Below, piece after piece: positions 9,088 to 12,384 of a DNA stretch of 64,000 nucleotides. Within the stretch, counting starts at the first letter, position 1, and the number at the start of each line of letters is the position of its first letter. Position numbers and translations under genes: made by a program. The stretch is from Sphingomonas sinipercae (lineage in GTDB: Bacteria > Pseudomonadota > Alphaproteobacteria > Sphingomonadales > Sphingomonadaceae), in contig NZ_CP049871.1 of the NCBI RefSeq assembly GCF_011302055.1, positions 1,570,501 through 1,634,500 of the forward strand, in the 5' to 3' direction. The notes beneath the pieces were generated by a model. It had not been told where the DNA came from, did no database searches, and was given only the letters and a program-made list of their open reading frames with translations.

Positions 9088-10107
9088 TCAAAGGCTGTGC
9101 GGTTCCTTTTCGACCTGCCAGGTCTGACCCTTGGCGACGAGCGCCTGGAGGTCGGGGGACTTGCCCTTGGCCGCGGCGGCATTCTGTTCGACGACGGCGC
9201 TTTCGAACGTCGGCGCCGGATCCTCGTAAAGGACGCCAAGCGCGACCGGGAACCCGTCCTGCGGCATTTCGACGAGCATGTGCGCGATCGACCGGTTGGT
9301 GGCGTCGTGGACCAGCACTTCGGGATTATCGGCGTCGACGACCTTGAGCGCGAGCCGGTCGCGATCCAGCGCCAGCCCCTTGGTCCCGCCGGCGAACAGC
9401 ATCTTCTCGCCCGGTTTCAGCCAAAGCTGCTTTTCCGCGGCGGACTCGCGGGCAGTGAAGGGCGCGAAGACGTCGTCATTGTAGACGACGCAATTCTGGA
9501 AGATTTCGACGAAGCTGGCGCCGCGATGCGCGTGCGCGGCCTTGAGCACCTCGGGCAAATTCTTGTGCACGTCGATGGCCCGGGCGACGAAGCGCGCGCC
9601 TGACCCCAGGGCAAAGGCGCTGGGCGTCATCGGCCGGTCGACCGAGCCGAACGGGGTCGATGGCGATCGGGTACCGATGCGGCTGGTCGGCGAATATTGC
9701 CCCTTGGTCAGGCCGTAGATTTCATTGTTGAACAGCAGGATCTGGCAATCGAGGTTGCGGCGCAGGACGTGCATCGTGTGGTTGCCGCCGATGCTCAAGG
9801 CGTCGCCGTCGCCAGTGATGATCCACACGTCGAGCTCCGGATTGGCGAGCTTGATGCCGGTGGCAAACGCCGGCGCCCGGCCGTGGATGGTGTGGAAGCC
9901 GTAGCTGGCCATGTAATAAGGGAAGCGGCTGGAGCAGCCGATGCCGCTGACGAACACCGTCTTTTCCCGCGCCACGCCAAGGTCGGGCATGGTGCGCTGC
10001 ACCGCCTTCAACACCGCATAGTCGCCGCAACCGGGGCACCAGCGGACCTCCTGGTCGCTGGCCCAGTCTTTCGCGGTCGTCGCCGGGATCGGGGTCAGGT
10101 CGTTCAT
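9088..10107 (-). CDS. korB: 2-oxoacid:ferredoxin oxidoreductase, beta subunit
   Basis: 339 residues. This is the thiamine-diphosphate-binding subunit of 2-oxoglutarate/2-oxoacid ferredoxin oxidoreductase: WCPGCGDYAVL near residues 23-33 (iron-sulfur/TPP region), SGIGCSSRFPYY, and the TPP-Mg motif GDGDALSIGGNH. The complex oxidises a 2-oxoacid with CoA to acyl-CoA plus CO2, reducing ferredoxin. KorA is upstream, separated by two tiny overlapping ORFs. Starts at ATG 10107, 4 bases after the stop of the 24-codon ORF. Exact substrate (2-oxoglutarate or another 2-oxoacid) is inferred from the KorAB type. Confidence 0.95.
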   Translation of the reverse strand: MNDLTPIPATTAKDWASDQEVRWCPGCGDYAVLKAVQRTMPDLGVAREKTVFVSGIGCSSRFPYYMASYGFHTIHGRAPAFATGIKLANPELDVWIITGDGDALSIGGNHTMHVLRRNLDCQILLFNNEIYGLTKGQYSPTSRIGTRSPSTPFGSVDRPMTPSAFALGSGARFVARAIDVHKNLPEVLKAAHAHRGASFVEIFQNCVVYNDDVFAPFTARESAAEKQLWLKPGEKMLFAGGTKGLALDRDRLALKVVDADNPEVLVHDATNRSIAHMLVEMPQDGFPVALGVLYEDPAPTFESAVVEQNAAAAKGKSPDLQALVAKGQTWQVEKEPHSL

Positions 10108-10111
10108 CGCC

Positions 10112-10186
10112 TCAGCTCAGCCAGACGATAATTGCGATGACGATGACCAGCATCGCGATCATCGGGATGGGGTTGATCTGCTTCAT
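10112..10186 (-). CDS. Putative 24-residue single-span membrane peptide between korA and korB
   Basis: An ATG at 10186 opens a 24-codon frame ending TGA at 10112. The peptide is MKQINPIPMIAMLV followed by IVIAIIVWLS: a basic N-terminus and about 17 consecutive hydrophobic residues, a convincing single transmembrane helix. Its ATG overlaps the stop of the preceding 59-codon ORF as ATGA, and korB starts 4 bases after its stop, so it would be translationally coupled to both. It resembles no family I know. It may be a small subunit or membrane tether for the oxidoreductase, which is pure inference. Confidence 0.55.
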   Translation of the reverse strand: MKQINPIPMIAMLVIVIAIIVWLS

Positions 10187-10362
10187 GCCGAAACGTCCTT
10201 ACGGTCACTAAAGTCACGCGGTTGTGCAGCATTTTCGTGACCTTTAGCGAGCTCTGCACCTGGCGCCGCGCCGTCACGGAGTAAATCCGTGACGTCGATC
10301 GGGCCCTGCTTCGCCGACCCGTCGGCCGACCGCTGCCTCAGCTCTTCGCGCTGCTCGATCAT
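10183..10362 (-). CDS. Putative 59-residue charged protein coupled to korA
   Basis: ATG at 10362 overlaps the korA stop (ATGA), and TGA at 10183-10185 overlaps the ATG of the 24-codon membrane ORF (again ATGA). The product is hydrophilic and highly charged: it starts MIEQREELRQRS and ends DFSDRKDVSA, with no membrane segment or known domain. Two inverted repeats fall inside the reading frame, so part of the protein may be encoded by inserted palindromic DNA. The double ATGA overlap argues that it is translated. Function unknown. Confidence 0.55.
   Translation of the reverse strand: MIEQREELRQRSADGSAKQGPIDVTDLLRDGAAPGAELAKGHENAAQPRDFSDRKDVSA
10208..10247. repeat. Imperfect inverted repeat inside the 59-codon ORF
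   Basis: Arms CTAAAGTCACG (10208-10218) and CGTGACCTTTAG (10236-10247) are complementary apart from one bulged base, with a 17-base loop. The hairpin would form in the korA-korB mRNA as well as in DNA. It could slow a ribosome, serve as an RNase processing site, or be part of a palindromic repeat family. Confidence 0.7.
10273..10293. repeat. Perfect 8-bp inverted repeat inside the 59-codon ORF
   Basis: GTCACGGA-GTAAA-TCCGTGAC, a perfect palindrome with a 5-base loop. No T-run follows, so it is not an intrinsic terminator. It shares the GTCACG core with the neighbouring inverted repeat at 10208-10247, suggesting that both belong to one palindromic unit. Confidence 0.75.
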
Positions 10363-12269
10363 TGCTGCGCAATCCTCTCGCTGCGCTCGGCGAGTTGGGT
10401 GTCGATCGCTTGTTCAATCTCGGCGATGCGGAAAGGGTGGCCGCTGACCTTGTTCAGCGGCTGCGCGTCGACGAGATACTGATCGCGGAGCAAGGTCTTC
10501 AATTGGCCCATGTTCATCTCGGGCACGAGGATGCGCCCGAAGCCCTTCAATAGGACAGACATATTTTTGGGCATCGGCCAGATGTGGCGGATGTGGACGT
10601 GGGCGACGTCCTGTCCCTTGTCGAGCGCCCGGCGCACCGCCTGGTGGATCGGGCCAAAGGTCGAGCCCCACCCGACGACCGCAAGCGCCGCCCCTTCGCG
10701 GCCGAGGCAGACGTCCTGGTCGGGAATGCCCTGCGCGACGTTGAGCACCTTCGCGGCGCGCGTGTCGGTCATCTCCTGGTGCGACTTGGGCGAGTAATCG
10801 ATGTTGCCGCTGCCCGGCGCTTTCTCAATGCCGCCGATGCGGTGTTCCAGCCCGGGCGTGCCCGGCTTGATCCACGGGCGGACGAAGTTGCAGTCGCGGG
10901 CATAAGGCATCACGCCCTCGCCCTCCGCCGGCGCGGTTTCGAGGAACTTGACCGGGAACGGCGTGTAGGTCCCCATGTCGGGCACCTTCCACGGCTCGGC
11001 CGCATTGGCGATGTAGCCGTCGGTCAGGAGCATCACCGGCGTCATGTGATGAGTGGCGATGCGCACCGCCTCGATCGCGCAATCAAACGCATCGGCCGAC
11101 GAGCGGGCGGCGATGACCGGCACCGGCGCGTCGCCGTTGCGGCCATAAACGGCCTGGTAAAGGTCCGACTGCTCGGTCTTGGTCGGAAGGCCCGTCGACG
11201 GGCCGCCGCGCTGCGAATTGACGACCACCAGCGGCAGCTCGGTCATGATCGCGAGGCCAAGGGCTTCCATCTTCAGGGCGATGCCCGGCCCGGATGATGA
11301 TGTGATGCCCAGGTGCCCGGCGTAGGACGCGCCGATGGCGGCGCAGATTGCCGCAATCTCGTCCTCCGCCTGGAAGGTGGTGATCCCGAATTCCTTGAGC
11401 CGCGACAGATGGTGGAGCAGCGGGCTGGCCGGGGTGATCGGGTAGGAACCGAAGAACATCTTGAGGCCGGCGAGCTGCGCCCCGGCAACCAGGCCGAGGG
11501 CAAGCGCCTCGGCGCCGGTGACGGTGCGGTAAAGCCCCGGTTCGGCCGGTGCGGCCGCAATCCGGTGCTGTCGCATCCCCGGCGCGCCGATTTCCACCGT
11601 CTCGCCATAGGCATGGCCGGCGTTGAGCGCGGCGATATTGGCCTCCGCAAGCTCCGGCATCTTGGCGAACTTGGTCTTCAGCCACTCGACGATCGGCGCG
11701 CGGTCGCGGTCGAACATCCACAGCGCCAGGCCGAGCGTCCACATGTTCTTGCAGCGCAGCGCTTCCTTGTTGCCAAGGCCGAACGGCTTCACCGCATCGA
11801 GCGTCAATTGCGAGATGTTGAACTTGATCAGCTGCCATTTGCCGAGCGAGCCGTCTTCGAGCGGGTTGGCATCGTAGCCGGCCTTGGCGAGGTTGCGGGC
11901 GCCGAATTCGCCTTCGTCGGCGATAATCAGCCCGCCTTCGCGCAAATGTTCGACATTCACCTTCAGCGCGGCCGGGTTCATCGCCACCAGCACGTCGGGC
12001 TGGTCGCCGGCGGTCTCGATCGCCGTCGAGCCAAAATTGATCTGGAAGGCGGAAACCCCGAACGTCGTCCCCTGCGGGGCGCGGATTTCGGCCGGGAAGT
12101 CCGGGAAGGTGGCAAGGTCGTTGCCGGCGAGCGCGGTCGAGAGCGTGAACTGCCCGCCGGTGAGCTGCATCCCGTCGCCGCTATCGCCTGCAAAGCGGAC
12201 GACGACAGCTTCGAGATGCGGATGGGCGGAAGCTTCCGCTTCAGTGACGGTGTGGGTGGCAGTGGCCAT
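10359..12269 (-). CDS. korA: 2-oxoacid:ferredoxin oxidoreductase, fused gamma/alpha subunit
   Basis: 636 residues from ATG 12269. The N-terminal gamma domain starts near residue 27 (VVRFAGDSGDGMQLTGG); the alpha domain with FQAEDEIAAICAAIGASYAG follows near the middle, and a C-terminal transketolase-like domain completes the usual fused KorA of about 610-640 residues. It forms the 2-oxoacid-binding part of the complex with KorB. The frame continues upstream of 12269, but those 64 codons lack conservation and reach into the divergent promoter region. The stop overlaps a 59-codon ORF. Confidence 0.95.
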   Translation of the reverse strand: MATATHTVTEAEASAHPHLEAVVVRFAGDSGDGMQLTGGQFTLSTALAGNDLATFPDFPAEIRAPQGTTFGVSAFQINFGSTAIETAGDQPDVLVAMNPAALKVNVEHLREGGLIIADEGEFGARNLAKAGYDANPLEDGSLGKWQLIKFNISQLTLDAVKPFGLGNKEALRCKNMWTLGLALWMFDRDRAPIVEWLKTKFAKMPELAEANIAALNAGHAYGETVEIGAPGMRQHRIAAAPAEPGLYRTVTGAEALALGLVAGAQLAGLKMFFGSYPITPASPLLHHLSRLKEFGITTFQAEDEIAAICAAIGASYAGHLGITSSSGPGIALKMEALGLAIMTELPLVVVNSQRGGPSTGLPTKTEQSDLYQAVYGRNGDAPVPVIAARSSADAFDCAIEAVRIATHHMTPVMLLTDGYIANAAEPWKVPDMGTYTPFPVKFLETAPAEGEGVMPYARDCNFVRPWIKPGTPGLEHRIGGIEKAPGSGNIDYSPKSHQEMTDTRAAKVLNVAQGIPDQDVCLGREGAALAVVGWGSTFGPIHQAVRRALDKGQDVAHVHIRHIWPMPKNMSVLLKGFGRILVPEMNMGQLKTLLRDQYLVDAQPLNKVSGHPFRIAEIEQAIDTQLAERSERIAQQ

Positions 12270-12384
12270 GGCGCTTTCTAAGCCGGTGCATCTGCTTTCG
12301 CCACTGGGTTCATGAGGGACTTTTCCAGATTTGCAGGCCGCGAAAGGCAGCGCTAGCCTGCCGCTCTGCAACAAGGGGTGGCAA

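Follow-up and report, generated by a model that had tools for sequence, protein, structure and literature searches.

A conserved single-helix microprotein gene between korA and korB in Sphingomonadaceae

The korA-korB locus of Sphingomonas sinipercae

The window is a stretch of 64,000 nucleotides from Sphingomonas sinipercae (contig NZ_CP049871.1, positions 1,570,501 to 1,634,500), and all positions given here are counted from its first letter. On its reverse strand it encodes the two subunits of a 2-oxoacid:acceptor oxidoreductase. The fused gamma/alpha subunit, KorA, is a protein of 640 amino acids (10359..12281, ATG at 12281) that scores 627.1 bits against TIGR03710 (OAFO_sf, cut-off 482.75) and matches the Pfam families POR_N and POR above their cut-offs. 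The TPP-binding beta subunit, KorB, has 339 amino acids (9088..10107, ATG at 10107); it reaches 100.7 bits with PF02775 (TPP_enzyme_C), above the cut-off, and 242.4 bits with TIGR02177 (PorB_KorB), below the cut-off of 261.9. The nearest solved relatives are the two chains of an oxoacid:ferredoxin oxidoreductase, 6n2n_A for KorA and 6n2n_B for KorB. Since KorB lies under the TIGR02177 cut-off and over that of TPP_enzyme_C, and its best solved match is such a beta subunit, the name korB is given by relatedness and position. The entries 6n2n and 6n2o represent what we take to be the 2-oxoacid:ferredoxin oxidoreductase from Magnetococcus, an enzyme for which we know of no membrane component. On the Kyte-Doolittle scale, KorB is without a membrane segment (best 19-residue average 0.91), and KorA has two borderline stretches, one from residue 259 (1.64) and one from residue 336 (1.57).

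Two short open reading frames lie between these genes, also on the reverse strand. The stop codon of korA (10361-10359) is joined by an ATGA overlap (10362-10359) to the start of a frame of 59 codons (10362-10183), the stop of which overlaps in a second ATGA (10186-10183) with the start of a frame of 24 codons (10186-10112), and four bases (10111-10108) separate the latter from korB. The initial annotation had described exactly this layout and had taken both frames for translationally coupled genes. Comparison with relatives, the check that it had itself proposed, bears out that view for the 24-codon frame, which is present in 64 of 65 junctions of the genus and is under purifying selection, and overturns it for the 59-codon frame, which consists of repeat DNA and has no counterpart in 230 other junctions. 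An RNA structure was considered as the feature of the locus and set aside, as a 271-nt stretch with the spacer folds no better than its shuffled versions (z -1.06).

A conserved microprotein encoded by the 24-codon frame

The 24-codon frame is a real gene, and its product, for which the working name KorM is used here, belongs to a conserved microprotein family whose members, across all genomes searched, sit exclusively between korA and korB of Sphingomonadaceae. A search of 120 relatives detected korB in 109, including 65 from the genus. The 65 junctions of the genus come from 64 genomes, one of which (G045) contributes two loci; L034 was excluded, as its contig stops short of korA. Among the genomes compared are Sphingomonas edaphi DAC4 (G041), S. 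alba SE158 (G064) and Sphingomonas sp. BN140010 (G048), and the first two carry the peptide at the slot. All but one of the 65 junctions encode a homologous single-helix peptide with the consensus MKPINxxPLIxMLIVV..W; 62 of these 64 peptides were recognised by the motif and two (L010 and L013) by eye. Over the 62, the best conserved columns are P8 (61), L13 (60), N5 (58), K2 (57) and W22 (44). Counted from the start nearest the motif, the peptides are 24-34 amino acids long.

The membrane helix proposed for the 24-mer is borne out by its best 19-residue Kyte-Doolittle window of 2.62, and the same measure is at least 1.79 in all 64 peptides, with a median of 2.47. Columns 9-23 are free of D, E, K, R, H, Q and N in 59 of 62 peptides. 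The N-terminal end carries a net charge of +1 in 57 of the 62, and the C-terminal end is at 0 in 34 and at +1 in 28; because the C-terminal charge is 0 or +1, the orientation in the membrane is only suggested.

Selection acts on the amino acid sequence of the peptide. Over 16 disjoint nearest pairs of peptide genes (disjoint, and not fully independent), there were 67.3 nonsynonymous and 86.7 synonymous changes, while a neutral simulation with a transition weight of 4 and a GC bias of 0.66 gave an expectation of 110.8 +/- 5.2 nonsynonymous changes, and all 500 runs stayed above the observed value (lowest 93.5). Weighing the other way, the median NG86 dN/dS over 1823 peptide pairs is a modest 0.51. 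The third-position GC content (GC3) of the 24-codon gene (0.88) is that of a coding sequence of this operon, with 0.85 in korA and 0.87 in korB. The 24-mer has no Pfam family above cut-off (best PF15012, E 0.086, 13.4 bits against a cut-off of 27) and no NCBIfam match above cut-off. Among the matches listed in the open-licence PMC literature, there was no account of a korA-korB peptide or of the repeats described below.

Several loci show variations of this gene. The motif in L036 and L043 has no start codon immediately before it, and the open frame there spans 44 amino acids; it remains open further upstream and begins in filler sequence (MAYTPRNP...), possibly an instance of non-coding DNA becoming coding. 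A 44-aa form is annotated in Sphingomonas sp. LY29 (G023) as hypothetical protein SH584_03960. The genome with two korAB loci (G045; L041 and L050) has a separate peptide at each, with four amino acid differences in the core, and could be a mixed assembly (6% contamination). In L075, from an assembly that is 70% complete (G066), the KorB frame contains an early in-frame stop, which may reflect either decay of the gene or an error of assembly, and the peptide was counted.

The 59-codon frame is repeat DNA

The 59-codon frame is not a gene; it is dispersed-repeat DNA that is open by chance. Its predicted product is hydrophilic, as the initial annotation had it (best 19-residue window 0.22), and gives no Pfam or NCBIfam match above cut-off; the GC3 of the frame is 0.63. 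A tblastn search of 230 other korA-korB junctions with the 59-mer returned a best match of only E 0.27 over 16 residues, and blastn of the same junctions found 21 nt of the first repeat described here in one of them (L014). When the DNA of the spacer was searched against the 2.07-Mb genome to which it belongs, dispersed elements appeared under two parts of the frame.

The first element, R1 (10195..10252), is a dispersed imperfect palindrome of about 50 bp with the sequence TAAAGTCACG...CGCGTGACTTTAGTGACTTTAAGG, and its end carries AAGG, a motif resembling a ribosome-binding site. It occurs at 15 places in the genome including this one (L002-L008, L099-L106), the others being 80-94% identical, and 13 of the 15 places fall outside long coding frames by a heuristic that takes as coding those open reading frames of at least 80 codons with a GC3 of at least 0.78. 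In a translated search of the same genome with the 59-mer, an in-frame TAA was found in 11 of 13 other matches. The second element, R2 (10262..10300), consists of the palindrome GTCACGGATTTACTCCGTGAC and its flank, with similarity to relatives reaching about position 10345. Exact copies of 28 and 27 bp are present elsewhere in the same genome. Furthermore, the 59-mer has partial matches elsewhere in other genomes of the genus (best E 1.3e-4), and these correspond to R2 in all seven stretches that were fetched (L283-L289, around position 1501 of each), with the palindrome changed at two positions at most. In all seven, which come from other species, the copies share the palindrome GTCACGGAGTAAATCCGTGAC followed by CGATCGGG...CCGACCCGTCGGCCG. 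Judged by coordinates, six are not near the korB of their own genome, and the seventh genome (G012) yielded no korB.

It would appear that two repeats inserted behind korA and pushed the peptide gene away from it in the genome of the window. As the 59-codon frame is repeat DNA and not a gene, the direct overlap between korA and the peptide gene has been lost here, and the ATGA at 10359-10362 is perhaps a relic of that original overlap. An AAGGA at 10196..10200 on the reverse strand, within the end of R1 and 9 nt before the ATG of the 24-mer, is its likely Shine-Dalgarno sequence. Since the last repeat ends in this motif, the peptide gene may have a ribosome site of its own, supplied by R1, through which the peptide would still be translated despite the lost overlap. 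Filler ending in TTAAG-like sequence precedes the peptide start in several relatives (L014, L028, L054, L059 and L060).

Gene arrangement in the genus

Across the 64 loci of the genus, the peptide gene starts in a 4-nt overlap with the korA stop in 26, at the stop in 6, and 23-194 nt beyond it in 29; L067-L070 were counted from an internal start, and a further ATG sits in the 4-nt overlap there. Its end lies within -5 to +3 nt of the korB start in 56 of 64 loci, with a 4-nt overlap in 30 of these, and 4-nt overlaps with both neighbours are found in 16. The spacers between korA and the peptide gene vary from species to species, apart from one shared by L011 and L048, and several contain palindromes or repeat-like runs. 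In three loci (L051, L052 and L073), a larger open reading frame lies between the peptide gene and korB.

Taxonomic distribution and evolution of the peptide

A profile built from 50 of the 64 peptides of the genus (A1) was used to search 396 genomes drawn from Sphingomonadales at E 0.01. It matched 34 genomes at one place each, in every case in the korA-korB slot as judged by coordinates relative to korB, and no copy was found outside the slot in the 396 genomes at this threshold. The matches comprise all 27 genomes of the genus with korB, as expected by construction, and seven in g41, g48, g53 and g71, which were absent from the profile. The profile is not fully sensitive, as it missed a slot peptide of this kind in G407 (L245), and inspection of the junctions themselves extended the set by named relatives, including an Allosphingosinicella MAG (L143). 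A presence beyond the family was considered and rejected: a second profile (A2), run on 385 genomes from across the class, gave four matches outside the family with E values between 3.1e-4 and 0.0094. The frame that holds the match has 355-592 codons in three cases and 64 in the fourth, and these matches were taken as chance. The peptide is absent from all 23 junctions read in other families of the order (43 genomes with korB), where the gaps are at most 23 nt, and from all 28 inspected in further orders of the class (63 genomes with korB), where the gaps are at most 25 nt in 27 cases and 38 nt in one. None of these 51 junctions outside the family has a membrane ORF in the slot.

In total, 231 junctions were classed by script, with several genomes entering twice (by name and by handle) and with L034 and L198 excluded because korA was missing. 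Of these, 108 are direct, 82 hold a short membrane ORF, 26 another spacer, 10 a larger membrane ORF and 5 a larger soluble ORF. The 82 short membrane ORFs are made up of the 64 loci of the genus, six duplicates (L137-L142), 11 peptides from outside the genus (L134-L136, L143-L145, L162, L227, L241, L245 and L246) and L269. In the last of these, from genus g37, the slot encodes an unrelated single-helix frame of 33 amino acids, MKIETPTQRRSVVIWFVLWAALLVLLPNFRIVQ, with an ATGA overlap with korB, which is possibly a case of convergence.

In a FastTree phylogeny of 228 KorB sequences (L075, L137 and L138 were left out), the peptide marks one clade consisting of the genus and its sisters (support 98), and a second, weaker cluster of g41, g48 and one g71 (support 74) lies among lineages without the peptide. 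The peptide label needs at least seven changes on this tree. The pattern could reflect a single origin followed by a number of losses, two separate origins, or transfer.

Three genomes of the peptide clade keep korAB without the peptide, namely G031 of the genus (L029) and two of g53 (L228 and L229), the latter two having repeat-like filler in its place; the peptide is thus not indispensable. Elsewhere in the genome of G031 there is no copy at E 1, and the idea that the peptide had become naturally fused to KorA in this genome was set aside, as the small gap there is plain absence of the peptide. Many other members of the family are also without it, having either never had it or lost it. Among KorA and KorB residues, none tracks the peptide convincingly in both clades; the best, E278 of KorA, is weak and is kept in G031. 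Six genomes of the genus have no detected korB, four of them being less than 90% complete. Five of the six give weak peptide matches within frames 185-349 codons long, the best at E 0.04, and the sixth gives none.

The junction as an insertion slot

The korA-korB junction is a recurrent insertion slot in the family. By raw counts, larger predicted membrane-protein ORFs of about 100-160 amino acids occupy it in 12 loci, two in the genus of the window (L051 and L073) and ten others (L074, L178, L193, L209, L211, L213, L226, L243, L264 and L274), and soluble ones in five lineages (L052, L151/L153, L186, L214 and L254). Homologous sets among the membrane ORFs are L051 with L193, L178 with L226 (weakly like one ORF of L243), and the other ORF of L243 with L274. 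In 11 of the 12 loci these ORFs have a lower GC3 than korB, the exception being L178. Seven of the membrane ORFs were scanned and gave no Pfam match above cut-off, and the slot ORF of L153 is DUF6678. The membrane ORFs in the slot are a soft hint that KorAB may favour partners in the membrane; among short orphan genes, membrane proteins are in any case common.

Relation to known systems

CydX is a single helix, and KdpF is likewise a small single-pass subunit encoded in the operon of its enzyme; the partners of both are integral membrane complexes. KorM resembles them in being a single transmembrane helix of fewer than 50 amino acids, encoded only with its enzyme across species and under purifying selection. 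CydX is described as shorter than 50 amino acids, encoded with its partner enzyme and having few highly conserved residues, with many homologues left unannotated (PMC4325964). The KorM system differs from CydX and KdpF in that membrane segments are absent from KorB and no better than borderline in KorA, and in that the KorM gene sits between both enzyme genes. Because its partner is not clearly a membrane protein, KorM is not filed as a member of the CydX type.

A second comparison is offered by Prli42, a membrane miniprotein proposed to tether a cytoplasmic complex, the stressosome, to the membrane; its deletion left growth unchanged under several stresses (PMC9840623). Prli42 is comparable to KorM in its putative role, both being membrane miniproteins and putative tethers of a cytoplasmic complex. 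It differs in having another partner and belonging to another phylum, and in that its interaction rests on immunoprecipitation, where that of KorM is putative.

A further comparison is with KorAB of Mycobacterium tuberculosis, which is described as an aerotolerant 2-oxoglutarate:ferredoxin oxidoreductase that likewise has a fused gamma/alpha and a beta subunit, and for which the way in which redox pools are fed is stated as unclear (PMC2773412). Membrane association is also suggested there, since the alpha subunit contains two hydrophobic stretches (PMC2773412); the hydrophobic stretches of KorA lie at similar residue numbers, in a comparison made without alignment. A point of difference is that an intergenic peptide is not mentioned in the passages drawn on from the M. 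tuberculosis source (PMC2773412).

Possible role of the peptide

The initial annotation had proposed that a membrane peptide encoded here might tether the enzyme or link it to the respiratory chain, and this is plausible, being supported by the strict genomic linkage. With a confidence just above even, we favour the reading that the peptide is made together with KorA and KorB, is located in the inner membrane and anchors the enzyme to it in the vicinity of an electron carrier. KorA, the peptide and KorB would originally have been translated in similar amounts through termination-reinitiation at two 4-nt overlaps. Given the length of the ribosomal tunnel, a chain of 24 residues would still lie inside it when synthesis ends. 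The peptide would insert post-translationally as one helix, with the N-terminal lysine and the KPINxxP cap predicted on the cytoplasmic side, and could there serve as a docking point that keeps KorAB on the inner membrane, within reach of the carrier receiving its electrons. Weighing against this reading are the three genomes of the peptide clade that have korAB and no peptide, the many other family members without it, and the lack of a KorA or KorB residue that clearly tracks it. The acceptor that first suggests itself, Rnf, was considered and discarded: RnfC_N is a component of one known membrane ferredoxin oxidase, and a search of the genome gave no match to it and three to Fer4_7.

The same features could be read differently if the peptide were real and acted on another membrane protein, such as a respiratory or transport complex, thereby signalling KorAB synthesis to it without binding KorAB. 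A co-expression layout fits such a metabolic signal as well as it fits a subunit, and the apolar helix (in 59 of 62 peptides) with its short soluble cap is compatible with it. However, a regulator of this kind would be expected to move sometimes, and the absence of any copy outside the slot in the 396 genomes at E 0.01, together with nothing beyond weak matches in five of the six genomes without a detected korB, makes this reading unlikely.

The 4-nt overlaps at both ends in a quarter of the genus loci (16 of 64) would also suit a frame that is merely a translational spacer or coupler setting the ratio of KorB to KorA, the peptide itself being inert. This is very unlikely, as selection acts on the amino acids and not on an open frame alone, as the peptide is kept while its start varies from an overlap to 194 nt past the korA stop, and as korA and korB are adjacent without it in many members of the family and in nearly all outgroup junctions read. 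A similarly slim chance is given to a selfish or toxin-like hydrophobic peptide, of the Hok or TisB kind, that has settled in the operon. The small size, strong hydrophobicity and lack of a family above cut-off would agree with such an origin, as would the entry of several other ORFs into the same slot in the family, but such toxins tend to be mobile and to occur in multiple copies, while the peptide, in the genomes searched, is confined to one site with no other copies, evolves under purifying selection and is clustered on the KorB tree. That both small frames are functional coupled genes, as the ATGA overlaps at both ends of the 59-codon frame might imply, is scarcely credible, being contradicted by the lack of a counterpart at 230 junctions, the repeat origin and the poor GC3 of that frame.

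Returning to the reading of the peptide as a membrane anchor of KorAB, a bolder extension of it, tentative and on balance rather doubtful, would be that KorAB in Sphingomonadaceae is a membrane-attached enzyme of the respiratory type, with a microprotein born in a gene overlap as its third subunit and anchor, and that in sister lineages other small membrane proteins with an equivalent function came to occupy the slot independently. If this were true, a membrane-attached KorAB with its anchor would answer how the aerobic enzyme hands over its electrons.

The peptide family is of a size that annotation easily misses, and its gene seems to have arisen within a tightly overlapping gene pair. The locus also shows dispersed repeats breaking a gene overlap and perhaps resupplying the ribosome site. 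The peptide would provide a direct genetic handle on the electron hand-over of an aerobic 2-oxoacid:ferredoxin oxidoreductase.
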